DNA of 64,000 nucleotides. It comes from Ruegeria profundi (GTDB taxonomy: Bacteria > Pseudomonadota > Alphaproteobacteria > Rhodobacterales > Rhodobacteraceae). The notes beneath the pieces are model-generated. The model worked only from the letters and a program-made list of their open reading frames with translations. It was not told the DNA's origin and searched no databases. The DNA lies in contig NZ_LQBP01000001.1 of the NCBI RefSeq assembly GCF_001507545.1, positions 434,001 through 498,000 of the forward strand. The letters run 5' to 3'. The translations under genes and the position numbers were made by a program. Below are positions 33,175 through 37,268 of the stretch, one piece after another (the first letter of the stretch is position 1; each line of letters starts with the position of its first letter).

Positions 33175-33984
33175 TTACCTGTCTTTGCCCAGCATGTGAT
33201 CCATCGAGATTGATGGCTGATCACAGCCTGCCTCACCAACGATCTTGGCTGGAATGCCAGCAACCGTTTTGCAGGCCGGCACGTCTTGCAAAACGACGGA
33301 GCCCGCAGCGATACGGCTACAACGGCCAACCGAAATATTACCAAGCACTTTGGCCCCGGCACCAATAAGCACGCCATTTCCTATTTTTGGATGGCGGTCT
33401 TCTTCTTCCTTACCTGTTCCGCCCAATGTAACGGAATGCAGCATCGAAACATTGTCCCCTACCACGGCCGTTTCACCAATGACGATGGAATGCGCGTGGT
33501 CGATCATGATGCCCTTGCCGATTTTTGCGGCGGGATGGATGTCGGTTCCGAAGATTTCGGACGAACGCATCTGGAAGAAATACGCCAAATCATGGCGCCC
33601 TTTCCGCCAAAGCCAATGCGCAACGCGGTAGGTCTGCATGGCCTGATAGCCTTTGAAATACAGGATCGGTTGCAACAAGCGGTGGCAGGCTGGATCACGT
33701 TCGTAAACGGCCATCAGGTCTGCACGCGCCGCCTCAATCAGCGTGGCGTCATCCGCATATGCTTCGTCCACGACCTCGCGCAGGACCATCATAGACATTT
33801 CGTTCGAACACAGCTTGGCCGAGATGCGATAGGACAGAGCCCGACCCAGGCTGCGATGGTGCAATATGCAGGCATGCACTAACCCGCCCATCAACGGCTC
33901 ATTTTCGACAGCCGCTTGGGCTTCGCTCGTAATACGTGTCCAGACCGGATCAACCGGTGTCACGTGACTGCGCTTTTCCAACAT
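33175..33984 (-). CDS. cysE: Serine O-acetyltransferase
   Basis: Makes O-acetylserine from serine and acetyl-CoA, the entry to cysteine synthesis, in the cytosol. The 269-residue protein has the SATase N-terminal helical domain (about 10-135) and a left-handed beta-helix of hexapeptide repeats (about 140-240) with the catalytic His region DIHPAAKIGKGIMIDHAHS and VSMLHSVTLGGTGK. The ATG at 33984 is chosen, with AAGGA upstream; the frame extends further without a site. It lies immediately next to the GTA remnant on the same strand; from memory, cysE often flanks GTA clusters in Rhodobacterales. Confidence 0.95.
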   Translation of the reverse strand: MLEKRSHVTPVDPVWTRITSEAQAAVENEPLMGGLVHACILHHRSLGRALSYRISAKLCSNEMSMMVLREVVDEAYADDATLIEAARADLMAVYERDPACHRLLQPILYFKGYQAMQTYRVAHWLWRKGRHDLAYFFQMRSSEIFGTDIHPAAKIGKGIMIDHAHSIVIGETAVVGDNVSMLHSVTLGGTGKEEEDRHPKIGNGVLIGAGAKVLGNISVGRCSRIAAGSVVLQDVPACKTVAGIPAKIVGEAGCDQPSISMDHMLGKDR

Positions 33985-34148
33985 AACTATTGTTCCTTTG
34001 CTGCGCTTAGCATGCCATTTAGTTGGTAAAACGCCAAACGCAAACCCGTGATCGGTATGGTAACAAAAAAATATGAAACGGAATAAACCGGCAGCAAGGT
34101 CCACAATTGTATCTGACTCTGCATACGATCGCGACAAATTCCCTTGCT

Positions 34149-34439
34149 TTAACGGCATGTTGCCAGAAACAGGCGCAGGTGGCGCAGGACCAGCTCAAAA
34201 CACCGGCAAAACTGTATGTCATCAAAGCAAGGCTCATCGGCTAGCCGTCTGTTGCGCGCGACGGCCATCAACGAGCCATTGCCGAACTCGGGGTGCAGTT
34301 GACCTGTCTGGGAAACATGTTTGTAGGCCAGTTGAGCTTCGCGGAACATGCGAGCACACAAGCTTTCACGATCTTCCAGCGGCGCGGCCAGCAAAGCCCG
34401 CGCCGCCGCGCTGACGTCCCCGTGTAATACAGGACGCAT
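34149..34439 (-). CDS. Conserved hypothetical protein downstream of the GTA locus
   Basis: A 96-residue, Ala/Arg-rich, helical protein. I recognise it only as the kind of small gene that follows g15 at Rhodobacterales GTA loci; it has no known role. It starts eight bases after the g15 remnant stop, so it was likely the last gene of the GTA transcript. Segments RALLAAPLEDRESLCARMF and FGNGSLMAVARNRRLADEP look protein-like with normal codon use. It shows no sign of decay. Confidence 0.65.
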   Translation of the reverse strand: MRPVLHGDVSAAARALLAAPLEDRESLCARMFREAQLAYKHVSQTGQLHPEFGNGSLMAVARNRRLADEPCFDDIQFCRCFELVLRHLRLFLATCR

Positions 34440-34447
34440 CGTTTGGC

Positions 34448-36955
34448 CTACCCAACTGTCAGGCTGGCGTACAAGCCCGACCCGTAGCTGGCCGATACCT
34501 GCGCAACCCGAACGCTGTACGCGCCGCTGACACCATCTGCCGCTTGCGCCGCGGTGGGGTAAAACAAGGTCGGCTCAGTTACGACCTGTTCCCGCACCAA
34601 AGCACCATTCACGCTTATTTGAACAAGATAGGATTCGTTCTCCTCTGCCAGCGGCACGTCCAGCCCTGCCCAATCATCTCCGTCCAGACGGGTTCGGCGT
34701 ATCCAGGACAATTGATCACCGGATGGCGTGTGCTTTGCGCATAGGTGAACCGGCGCGTATGGGCGCAATCCGTTTCCGTTGAATGCCTCGATCAAGTGTA
34801 CAAAAGACGGGTCTTCATAGCCACGTGTCGCGGGGCCAATGCGATAATGCTTGGTCACGCGCCGCTCGGATCGCAACAGATTGGTTTGGTATACGCGTTG
34901 ATCAAGCAAAACGAACATCGATCCTTCGGGCCAAACATCGGGAATGATTGCATCTGTTCCAAGCTGACCACGCAACCGGCTGGACAAGGCGTACATGCCC
35001 GCCTCTTGCAAATTTGCCTCGGCGAATTGAAAAACTTCCCAGTTTCCAGGCGTGCCATCCCCAATCGCAGCCAGATTGGCACCATTCAGCAGCGCCTCTT
35101 GGGTGCGGGATTCCAGCAAACCGTCGACAAGCCTAACACGCAGAGCCGCCCCTTCATCCCAGATGCCTGCGCTTGCGCGTTTAAGCGGCGTTTCAGTAAA
35201 GCCAATCACTGCCTGTCCGGGAATGACGTCTTGCAATGCATAGCCTTCGTCGCCTGATGCCGAATAGACCGCTACGCTGCCAGGCCACGGATTTGCCGAC
35301 GCGGCCAGATACGGGGCATGCGGTGTTTCCGACCCGGTGATCAGCGGAAGATCCATAAATACGGGTAAAACAGGCACTGGTGCAACGAAGGGTTTTTCGG
35401 AAACCGAGTCGTCCGGCAGATTCAATGGTGCATAGACATCCGGTTCAACCCGGACCGCCTCGACCAACTGCAAATCAGACTGTTCTACCCGGTCAATGCG
35501 ATAGCGCGCACTCTGCCCCTCATTGGTCAGGCTGACGACATCACCTGCACCCAAGTGCAGCATCGACGGCGGCAAGGCAAATCTGGCTGTCTCGCGCGCA
35601 GTACGCGCCTCACTCAACCACCGTTCGGCGGTCTGTCGACCTTCGGCTCGGGTCATCGACAGGGGAAACTCGTTCACCGATACTGAATGCGTCTCATTGT
35701 CCGGCAAGATGGCCTCTTCCGAAACGACGTCATGATCCGCATCGGATTGAACAAAGCTAACGCGCACACGGCCTGACATCTCGGCCTCTGCCTCACGGCG
35801 AAACTCGACCCGTCCAGTGATTTCAGAACTGTCAGCCAGAACGTCGCTGGCAAGCTCTTCGGCACCGTGACCGTCGCGCATCTGAAACCGCAATACACCG
35901 TCCCGCTCGATCGCATCGAAACCATAGCGCAGCATCAACGGCTGCAAAGCTGCCCGCGCAGTTGTGACATCCTCGACCATGTACCCTCTCACAACCCCGT
36001 AAAGGCGAGAAACATCAATATCCGTAACACCAGCGCCGTAGCAGATTTCCGCAACGACCGAGGCCAAAGTCCGCGTGCCCGATCGCCCGTTCAGCCAGTG
36101 ACCACGTGGATAGTTTTCCCCATCGCTCCACTGGCTTCGTAGATTTGGAAAAGCAGGAAAGGGACGCGCATCCCAAGCCCAAATGTAGGCGTTCGACATA
36201 TCCACCATCTGACCGCCATACTGATCGGAAACGGGGTTCACGTGGGGATCAGACCAGTAGCCAAGCATAGCCTTCAGGTACTGCACCTGCATAAAGTCGT
36301 CGCGTGCACCATTTGAATAGCGCGGAAGACTGGACTCCGACGACTTGGGGTCAAGAAACTTGTTTGGTTGATTGCTTCCCTTGTCGATCGCCGCGCAACC
36401 CAGTTCATCCACCCAGGCCGCATCGAACTGAGGACCGCGCAAGCCCTCGGGATCATGCGCCGAAAACGCCTGTGCCTCGGCCCCGTTGGGCCAGATCAGT
36501 TTGCGTTCCGACGCCTTCCACGCAGGTCGCCGGTCCGGCGGCGAACACTGCAAAATCCCGCTATCGCCAAAAATCATCACGTCGCGCACCTGATCAAAGG
36601 TTTCACCGACCAAAGCCACGCGACACGCCTCACCATTATCCAACGGCAATGACCCTTCAACCATCGACCGCACCCATTCCGCTCCGGCCCGCGTCTTGCC
36701 TGCGCCACGCCCGCCCATGATTACCCAAGATCGCCAATCGCCCTTGGGCGGAAGCTGATGTGGCAGCGCCCAGAACTCGAACAGGAAAGGGAGGGCACAT
36801 AGCCCCCCCTCCCCGATCTCACTCAGAAATCTTTCCCGAACCGCAGCATCGGCGGAGGCGAGCCAACCTGCACCCGATTTCAAATCGAGCGCGCTCAAGG
36901 TCGAGCGCATACCCCCCTTGGGCAATTCCGGCTTGTCTGTGATGTTGTTCGACAA
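34448..36955 (-). CDS. GTA remnant: large terminase N-terminus fused in frame to the C-terminal half of tail protein g15
   Basis: One intact frame of 835 codons made of two unrelated GTA proteins. Residues 1-185 are the ATPase start of the large terminase (Walker A GGRGAGKT at 81-88, VALVGETFDQVRDVM, GLRGPQFDAAWVDE). From residue 186 the protein is the late TIM-barrel part and the tail/Rcc01698-like domains of the g15 megatron host-interaction protein (GCAAIDKGSNQPNKFLDPKS, WAWDARPFPAFPNLRSQW, and a long beta-rich region to the end). The nuclease domain, g3-g14 and the first half of g15 are absent. The start is TTG (GGAG upstream) or the ATG at 36910. It cannot work as a packaging motor; whether the product is made is unknown. 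Confidence 0.88.
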   Translation of the reverse strand: MSNNITDKPELPKGGMRSTLSALDLKSGAGWLASADAAVRERFLSEIGEGGLCALPFLFEFWALPHQLPPKGDWRSWVIMGGRGAGKTRAGAEWVRSMVEGSLPLDNGEACRVALVGETFDQVRDVMIFGDSGILQCSPPDRRPAWKASERKLIWPNGAEAQAFSAHDPEGLRGPQFDAAWVDELGCAAIDKGSNQPNKFLDPKSSESSLPRYSNGARDDFMQVQYLKAMLGYWSDPHVNPVSDQYGGQMVDMSNAYIWAWDARPFPAFPNLRSQWSDGENYPRGHWLNGRSGTRTLASVVAEICYGAGVTDIDVSRLYGVVRGYMVEDVTTARAALQPLMLRYGFDAIERDGVLRFQMRDGHGAEELASDVLADSSEITGRVEFRREAEAEMSGRVRVSFVQSDADHDVVSEEAILPDNETHSVSVNEFPLSMTRAEGRQTAERWLSEARTARETARFALPPSMLHLGAGDVVSLTNEGQSARYRIDRVEQSDLQLVEAVRVEPDVYAPLNLPDDSVSEKPFVAPVPVLPVFMDLPLITGSETPHAPYLAASANPWPGSVAVYSASGDEGYALQDVIPGQAVIGFTETPLKRASAGIWDEGAALRVRLVDGLLESRTQEALLNGANLAAIGDGTPGNWEVFQFAEANLQEAGMYALSSRLRGQLGTDAIIPDVWPEGSMFVLLDQRVYQTNLLRSERRVTKHYRIGPATRGYEDPSFVHLIEAFNGNGLRPYAPVHLCAKHTPSGDQLSWIRRTRLDGDDWAGLDVPLAEENESYLVQISVNGALVREQVVTEPTLFYPTAAQAADGVSGAYSVRVAQVSASYGSGLYASLTVG
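36398..36412 (-). other. Deletion junction between terminase (g2) and g15 sequence
   Basis: On the minus strand the codons for V-D-E-L-G meet here. Terminases of this family continue AAW-x-DEL-AKW, whereas g15 proteins have WFTEL-GCAAIDKG, so the shared E-L codons mark the join. The loss removes what is normally more than 10 kb of structural genes. A short shared word around GAACTGG is the probable microhomology. Confidence 0.8.
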
Positions 36956-37136
36956 AGCTTGTCTCCACTTTCTGACAACTTCGGATCAGCCCCTCTAGCT
37001 GCCCGAGTTGTTTGGCTGCACCAGCCAAGTCTGCATCCTCCCCGGTGCCAATTTGCCTGCGCAGTTCTTCCGCTGCTTGGCGCAAACCGCGAATGGATGT
37101 CTCAAGTGACTGCAAAAGCTCCGCCGTTTGTGACAT
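36819..37136 (-). CDS. GTA small terminase-like protein (g1 homologue)
   Basis: A helical protein of about 105 residues corresponding to the first gene of the Rhodobacterales GTA cluster, whose Rhodobacter capsulatus homologue acts as small terminase. Visible are a coiled-coil start (AELLQSLETSIRGLRQAAEELRR), then LGQLEGLIRSCQKVE and RQAGIAQGGYALDLERARFEIGCRLARL. It overlaps the terminase frame by about 90-140 bases, as expected for these genes. Start taken at the ATG with GGAAGAG upstream; ATGs at 37163 and 37178 are alternatives. It looks intact although its partner has lost most of its length. Confidence 0.75.
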   Translation of the reverse strand: MSQTAELLQSLETSIRGLRQAAEELRRQIGTGEDADLAGAAKQLGQLEGLIRSCQKVETSFVEQHHRQAGIAQGGYALDLERARFEIGCRLARLRRCCGSGKISE

Positions 37137-37210
37137 CCGCTCTTCCGGGGTAATCAAAGTCATGTTTGCCTGTGACCTCATGCGTGAGTTATTCCGCACG
37201 AGAGAAACGG

Positions 37211-37243
37211 AAAAACGGCCACCGGGTTGCCCCGGGGCCGTTT
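37211..37243 (-). terminator. Terminator-like hairpin in the leader of the GTA transcript
   Basis: On the minus strand AAACGGCC pairs with GGCCGTTT, with additional CCGGGG/CCCGG pairs in the loop, and TTTTTCC follows. It stands only 75-107 bases upstream of the g1 start and just after a promoter-like pair, so it may act as an attenuator. Confidence 0.6.
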
Positions 37244-37268
37244 GCCCACTTCTTCTAGCATGACACAA

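Follow-up and report, generated by a model that had tools for sequence, protein, structure and literature searches.

What becomes of a gene transfer agent (GTA) locus once the genes for the particle are gone, and is the remnant a scar or a gene in use? This question is raised by a 64,000-nucleotide stretch of the Ruegeria profundi genome (contig NZ_LQBP01000001.1, positions 434,001 to 498,000; hereafter the window), in which the GTA head-tail cluster, g1 to g15, has been reduced to a fusion gene that combines the front half of the large terminase (TerL) gene g2 with the back half of g15, the gene for the tail protein called megatron. On balance, it is probable that in Rhodobacteraceae the cluster has repeatedly collapsed, by a deletion of approximately 12 kb, into this one chimera, which has then been kept under purifying selection.

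The fusion gene forms a single open frame of 835 codons with a TTG start at 36955 (Table 1), and an internal ATG at 36910 leads to a protein of 820 amino acids. It joins g2 codons 1-184 to g15 from codon 672. When the two halves were aligned separately, as the preliminary description of the window had proposed, to the genes of L132 (genome G003, a relative with the cluster), g2 was covered over 1-185 and g15 over 669-1323. Pfam matches on the protein included Terminase_6N at residues 79-185, GTA_TIM at residues 175-270 (profile positions 204-299 of 299), Phage-tail_3, and Rcc01698_C, and PHROG 4271 (tail protein) covered residues 153-833. The NCBIfam megatron equivalog NF048004 scored 790.8 bits, under its cut-off of 800, over profile positions 639-1298 of 1299. 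As a large terminase the protein is incomplete, because similarity to g2 stops at residue 184-186 of 471, and neither a complete ATPase core nor the C-terminal nuclease was found. The retained part contains GGRGAGKT and FDxAWxDE, the Walker A and Walker B motifs; each was present in 26 of the 27 fusions described below, the exceptions being L105 (GGREAGKT) and L178, respectively. The frame, the Pfam matches, and the alignment to L132 thus confirmed the terminase-g15 fusion that had been read from the sequence alone.

None of the genes g3 to g14 was found in the window between or around the fused halves. In 33 Ruegeria genomes with the cluster, the corresponding g2-g15 stretch spans 11.7-14.1 kb (median 12.1 kb), in agreement with the proposed deletion of more than 10 kb; g1 lies upstream of the remnant, and g16 (DUF7742) and cysE lie downstream. 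A whole-genome profile search of the R. profundi assembly (33 contigs, 4.26 Mb), which had been suggested as a check, returned no match to Phage_portal (PF04860) or Phage_capsid (PF05065), and the genome held one match to the fusion. The GTA capsid was detected in none of the 15 fusion genomes that were searched whole and in both controls; G025 gave only a 35% match that resembled the second, 33% match in the control G003. For the remaining 12 fusions, no g3-g14 gene was found within 11-22 kb around each. With g3-g14, the nuclease half of g2, and the N-terminal half of g15 gone, no GTA particle should be built. Most of the assemblies are drafts, but the fusion was observed in separate records of several collections with species-level sequence divergence, and it lies inside long contigs, including one of 3.64 Mb in G039 and the 726-kb contig of R. 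profundi, where it is away from the contig ends. The interior position and the many separate assemblies make misassembly very unlikely, and an assembly or sequencing artefact as the source of the fusion is a negligible prospect.

The fusion was full-length or nearly so in 10 of the 54 Ruegeria genomes (G000, G007, G025, G038, G042, G039, G051, G031, G028, and G037, the last with a stop). A full-looking cluster, defined by matches to all 15 genes that each cover 70% or more of the query, occurred in 33 genomes, nine showed other decays (G002, G004, G005, G008, G022, G027, G029, G032, and G048), and two had the locus split over contigs (G036 and G046). A stop fell inside the match to g1, g4, g6, g9, g10, or g12 in 28 of the 33 full-looking clusters, for which the queries were mechanical frames with N-termini that are probably too long; g2, g3, g5, g7, g8, g11, g13, g14, and g15 contained no stop. 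Outside Ruegeria, six records among the best 80 of 228 relatives had the fusion, namely, L031 (Roseobacter sp.), L033 (Tateyamaria sp.), L034 (Sulfitobacter sp.), L041 (a metagenome-assembled Planktotalea), L042 (Rhodobacter sp. Har01), and L092. A family sample of 394 genomes, at about one per genus, contained it in at least 12 of 392 other genera (G159, G204, G137, G308, G311, G207, G380, G211, G445, G146, G284, and G171). As G207 is the same record as L092 and was counted once, 27 distinct fusions were obtained: 10 from Ruegeria, six from the named relatives, and 11 from the family sample, hence at least 17 outside Ruegeria. Separately, a GTA cluster of Rhodobacteraceae type was seen in L049, a record under the name Enemella evansiae (Actinomycetota), which is probably a mislabelled or contaminated assembly.

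All 27 fusions were joined at the same codon, AWxDE/xGC, where the slash marks the joint and x after it is L, M, Y, I, or F. In the window the joint falls on the GAA codon at 36406-36404 (D-E-L-G-C), and its Glu is common to the WVDEL of TerL and the WFTELG of g15. In contrast, nine other deletions, seven in Ruegeria and two in other genera, had nine different junctions: g3 225/g15 778, g2 108/g14 27, g2 261/g15 19, g2 142/g15 1235, g2 212/g15 1222, g5/g15 948, g6 144/g15 1024, g2 375/g15 304, and g2 471/g15 518. No junction was obtained from G005 (neither g1 nor g2 seen), G022 and G081 (broken without such a deletion), or G433 (contig end). Two of the other deletions left short fusions that are in frame by arithmetic on their coordinates, namely, g2(1-108)::g14(27-) at L111 8156-8836 (G004) and g2(1-142)::g15(1235-) at L115 7006-7689 (G027). 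Odd frames in G081, G433, G071, and G263 were considered as fusions of other partners to the same g15 codon, and these were rejected as ordinary decays or contig ends.

The deletion had initially been placed, as probable, at microhomology around the shared Glu-Leu codons. Microhomology is indeed present, but it cannot suffice as a cause: in the 33 Ruegeria with the cluster the exact repeats at the junction measure only 2-8 nt, each of these clusters contains 31-409 longer in-frame g2/g15 repeats (at least 7 nt), and at ten loci the local similarity at the junction (score 4-7) was lower than that on 285-1580 diagonals among the roughly 1780 that are in frame. A microhomology hotspot was therefore rejected as a sufficient explanation, and ordinary homology does not account for the same codon. 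Structure prediction was likewise uninformative at this point. The AlphaFold model from a 90-row alignment had a predicted local distance difference test score (pLDDT) mostly above 80 at residues 279-820 (with dips to 52-55) and of 63-89 in the ATPase half (residues 71-150), and of 33-66 at residues 161-280, which comprise the junction and the TIM remnant; a first model from 24 rows had a mean pLDDT of 62. A natural fold chimera, with a terminase strand continuing into a TIM-barrel unit, is not supported, as confidence there was low in both models. The recurrence at the same codon is the main difficulty.

Because of this point, weight has to be given to a main rival, in which one ancient fusion allele spread in Rhodobacteraceae by homologous recombination, the short fused piece replacing the cluster and crossovers near the junction making both halves look local. 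It accounts for the identical joint of all 27 fusions at no extra cost. Distances within the 33 Ruegeria clusters (L121-L153) also agree with it in part: g2 and g3 distances correlated with those of cysE at 0.23-0.34 (g2 at 0.34), compared with 0.70-0.75 for g9-g13 and g15 (0.74 for the g15 C-terminal part), and, as judged from these sequence distances, the 5' end of the cluster, including g2, seems to recombine among Ruegeria species and the 3' part seems vertical. Moreover, the block just past the junction is well conserved and suitable for crossovers, and the divergence of L101 from its nearest relative is raised on both sides of the junction (1.16 and 1.02 vs. approximately 0.5). Reacquisition of a whole cluster, from fusion back to intact, is a different matter and was rejected, since g9-g15 and cysE distances agree at 0.70-0.91 in the 33 Ruegeria, an agreement that would not be expected if the 3' part were often replaced.

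Phylogenetic analysis nevertheless separated the fusions. The C-half trees required 15 changes for 16 fusions (111 rows) and 22 changes for 27 fusions (143 rows), both trees being quick, with Shimodaira-Hasegawa-like approximate likelihood ratio (SH-aLRT) support only and with long branches in places. For the N half, a protein tree of 52 rows required 17 changes for 27 fusions. For the 10 Ruegeria fusions, the changes numbered nine for cysE, nine for the N-part DNA, eight for the C-part DNA, and seven for the first 130 C-part codons. Parsimony counts do not distinguish gain from loss, and they are read as repeated loss because the fused parts derive from g2 and g15. Supported placements in the cysE tree put L101 beside L111/L132 (100/99), L106 beside L145 (99/91), L108 beside L153 (99/91), and L103 with L105 (100/98); the fusion of the window was unplaced. 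In both half-trees the fusions lay dispersed beside unfused copies from the subclade or genus to which they belong, and in both halves the Planktotalea fusion grouped with P. frisia and the Tateyamaria fusion with Tateyamaria. A single clade of the ten Ruegeria fusions was rejected ahead of the junction for codons 100-183 (84 codons; p 3e-71), and past it for codons 190-259 (70 codons; p 0.0002) and 190-837 (p 3e-39). No fusion-specific haplotype was detected at the junction in Ruegeria by a comparison of limited power, in which the nearest neighbour was a fusion in 0.0 of 10 cases for codons 165-183 and 190-205 (expected, 1.8 and 1.95). Furthermore, the Planktotalea (FDG, YGCAS) and Sulfitobacter (Y, GAN) fusions hold residues of their own genus 1-10 codons from the junction; the Y is found elsewhere too. 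The spread of a single allele thus appears possible but somewhat unlikely.

Repeated collapse followed by purifying selection also accords with the state of the frames. A stop was absent from the aligned stretch in 25 of the 27 fusions. The ratio of nonsynonymous to synonymous substitution rates (dN/dS) between the fusion C half and the nearest unfused g15 was 0.02-0.145 (the lowest value being saturated), and bin means of unfused pairs were 0.06-0.11. In triplet comparisons, dN/dS was 0.041-0.168 on fusion branches (nine usable of 10; L104 was unusable) and 0.037-0.138 on sister branches, with 0.027-0.127 for the N part on fusion branches (nine rows). Two fusion pairs that each cross genera, L213/L214 and L211/L212, were sisters in both trees and had no stops, with identities of 64% and 58% in the C half and 86% and 80% in the N half. 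As far as sequences can tell, these deep pairs fit old fusions that are common to both members and maintained, the alternative being independent fusion in sisters, and the recurrence at the same codon together with a mostly unbroken frame looks like a used gene and not a fresh scar. The DUF2793 gene, the RcGTA (Rhodobacter capsulatus GTA) tail fibre according to the accessible part of PMC10883770, is unlinked, and its frame was complete in all 10 Ruegeria fusion genomes. It was broken in three of the nine other decayed Ruegeria (G032, G048, and G027), the other six being seen only as open frames. It was also broken in L238 (G013), despite a full-looking main cluster.

The same observations have been weighed against a second rival, namely, that the fusions are young, useless scars of GTA-loss mutants (cheaters) at a mutational hotspot, too recent to have decayed. 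In favour of this, most fusions are single tree tips, their dN/dS resembles that of unfused genes, and the Ruegeria fusion genomes retain a complete tail-fibre frame; the loss and pseudogenization of GTAs across many lineages are discussed in the accessible part of PMC10883770. On the other hand, the short junction repeats and the better repeats and diagonals elsewhere reveal no hotspot sequence, and the scarcity of stops and the two deep pairs are unfavourable to recent origins. L041 is a metagenome-assembled record (3.9-kb contig, coverage 1.6 by its title), so the fusions need not all be laboratory losses. Young scars are accordingly regarded as quite improbable.

Several observations weigh against a conserved, repeatedly formed gene. 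Two of the 27 fusions contain a stop, dN/dS was higher on the fusion than on the sister branch in five of nine triplets, and missense changes were more numerous on the fusion branch in nine of 10 C-part triplets, which indicates that some relaxation is possible; low tip-branch dN/dS and the absence of stops would also be expected if all fusions were very young. The tail-fibre contrast of 10/10 vs. 6/9 was not significant (p 0.087). The g1 gene of L108 is frameshifted near its end, and g1 was undetected by the Ruegeria query in 11 of the 27 fusions (L041 is cut by the contig end). The imported-tract tests in Ruegeria are low-powered, and a very short foreign tract is inseparable from a local one. 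Finally, with the low pLDDT at the junction, structure gives no reason for the exact codon, and this tips the balance towards a junction inherited by common descent or towards a hotspot. The first proposal, of a recent, one-off scar dating a natural loss of gene transfer, was not supported, as the fusion occurs in 10 of 54 Ruegeria and at least 17 genomes of other genera, at one codon and with dN/dS similar to that of unfused g15. Of the original interpretation, the deletion, the structural loss, and the open frame remain, whereas the single recent event is not supported by the comparison with sister genomes.

Table 1. Features of the fusion locus and its flanks (positions in the window).
Feature	Position	Strand	Basis
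Fusion gene, TerL N-terminal half and megatron C-terminal half	34448..36955	-	Frame; Pfam, PHROG, and NCBIfam matches; alignment to L132
Terminase-derived part, ATG to the Glu at the joint, with the motifs GGRGAGKT (Walker A) and FDAAWVDE (Walker-B-like); rest of g2, including nuclease half, gone	36404..36910	-	
Junction codons D-E-L (GAT GAA CTG); Glu codon common to g2 and g15	36401..36409	-	
Megatron-derived part: end of peripheral/TIM domain, whole central, whole fibre-binding	34451..36406	-	Borders from PMC7296036 (accessible part)
g1, homologue of the small terminase (TerS); frame of 120 aa with ATG start, overlapping the start of the fusion gene	36819..37181	-	TerS role, PMC6854486 (accessible part)
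Terminator-like leader hairpin (-29.5 kcal/mol, z -4.5) with a T run after it, upstream of g1	37200..37249	-	Folding
DUF7742, RcGTA g16 by position	34149..34439	-	PMC9552610 (accessible part)
cysE serine acetyltransferase frame, flanking gene (cysE1 in R. capsulatus)	33175..34158	-	PMC9552610 (accessible part)

The flanks of the RcGTA locus, g1, g16, and cysE, together with a conserved leader, are all in place. Approximately 130-150 bp upstream of g1 were equally conserved in the 10 fusion and 33 other Ruegeria, and the leader hairpin also folds in the unfused L132 (-23.6) and the fusion L101 (-25.8), so GTA-type control may persist; a consensus scan of the leader did not list this hairpin. 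With or without the fusion, the hairpin could represent antitermination control of GTA genes.

The domains that were retained suggest how the protein might act. According to the accessible part of PMC7296036, the RcGTA megatron consists of iris (1-46), adhesin-like (47-229), peripheral (230-744), central (745-984), and fibre-binding (985-1304) domains. Alignment to 6tba chain 8A with these borders indicated that the fusion has lost the iris/pore, the adhesin-like domain, and most of the peripheral domain, and has retained the central and fibre-binding domains in full; both of the latter were predicted with high confidence in the structural model. In RcGTA, the part of TerL bound by TerS is the ATPase domain, residues 27-258 (PMC6854486, accessible part), and the fusion contains the first portion of it. 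The retained Walker half, encoded beside the TerS gene, is part of this region reported to bind TerS, and the central domain is one that in RcGTA touches the distal tail proteins and the hub. The fused protein would be made from the old GTA promoter and would be useful; contacts with TerS, the hub, the distal tail, and the fibres might still be possible for it, and it could neither package nor gate DNA. We speculate that it interferes in a trans-dominant manner, titrating TerS and fibres and entering baseplates without the DNA-gate part, which would poison the assembly of phages or incoming GTA genes with the same type of baseplate and packaging. Interference with GTA-like phages as the function is a guess of this kind. 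G021, G026, and G014 carry extra megatron-like genes (36-40% identity) beside DUF2793 genes. These loci are probably prophages with GTA-type baseplates in Ruegeria and possible targets of interference. That Rhodobacteraceae repeatedly convert their GTA to the same chimera by selected or site-directed deletion and use it against GTA-baseplate phages, a convergent exaptation with single-codon precision, is a tentative and, as a whole, doubtful proposal.

The fusion locus resembles the RcGTA-type cluster in position, flanks, g2 and g15 sequence, and leader, and differs from it in lacking g3-g14, the nuclease half of g2, and the N-terminal half of g15. It shares the C-terminal central and fibre-binding domains with the GTA megatron (NF048004; PDB 6tba chain 8A) and with the megatron of 8gtc chain M (roseophage R4C), but its N-terminal half is the ATPase half of a terminase instead, and it remains below the NF048004 cut-off. 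Like the degraded GTA or cheater lineages treated in the accessible part of PMC10883770, it has presumably lost GTA production by deletion; unlike them, it shows one precise junction 27 times and a mostly open, constrained frame, in contrast to the nine junctions of the nine other deletions. No account of this fusion was found in the literature, including the accessible parts of PMC9836097, PMC9552610, PMC10883770, PMC13420450, PMC6854486, and PMC7296036, the subscription literature being mostly beyond reach. As a recurrent, conserved, GTA-derived fusion gene, its parts are ordinary and its recurrence at one codon is striking.

These results bear on why GTAs persist and on the fate of lineages that stop making them. 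If the interpretation is true, a path of loss that ends repeatedly in one conserved chimera would mean either that GTA parts are useful outside the particle, or that a process deletes the cluster at one codon. Both alternatives are testable with Ruegeria isolates, in some of which the fusion is present, with the full cluster in their close relatives.

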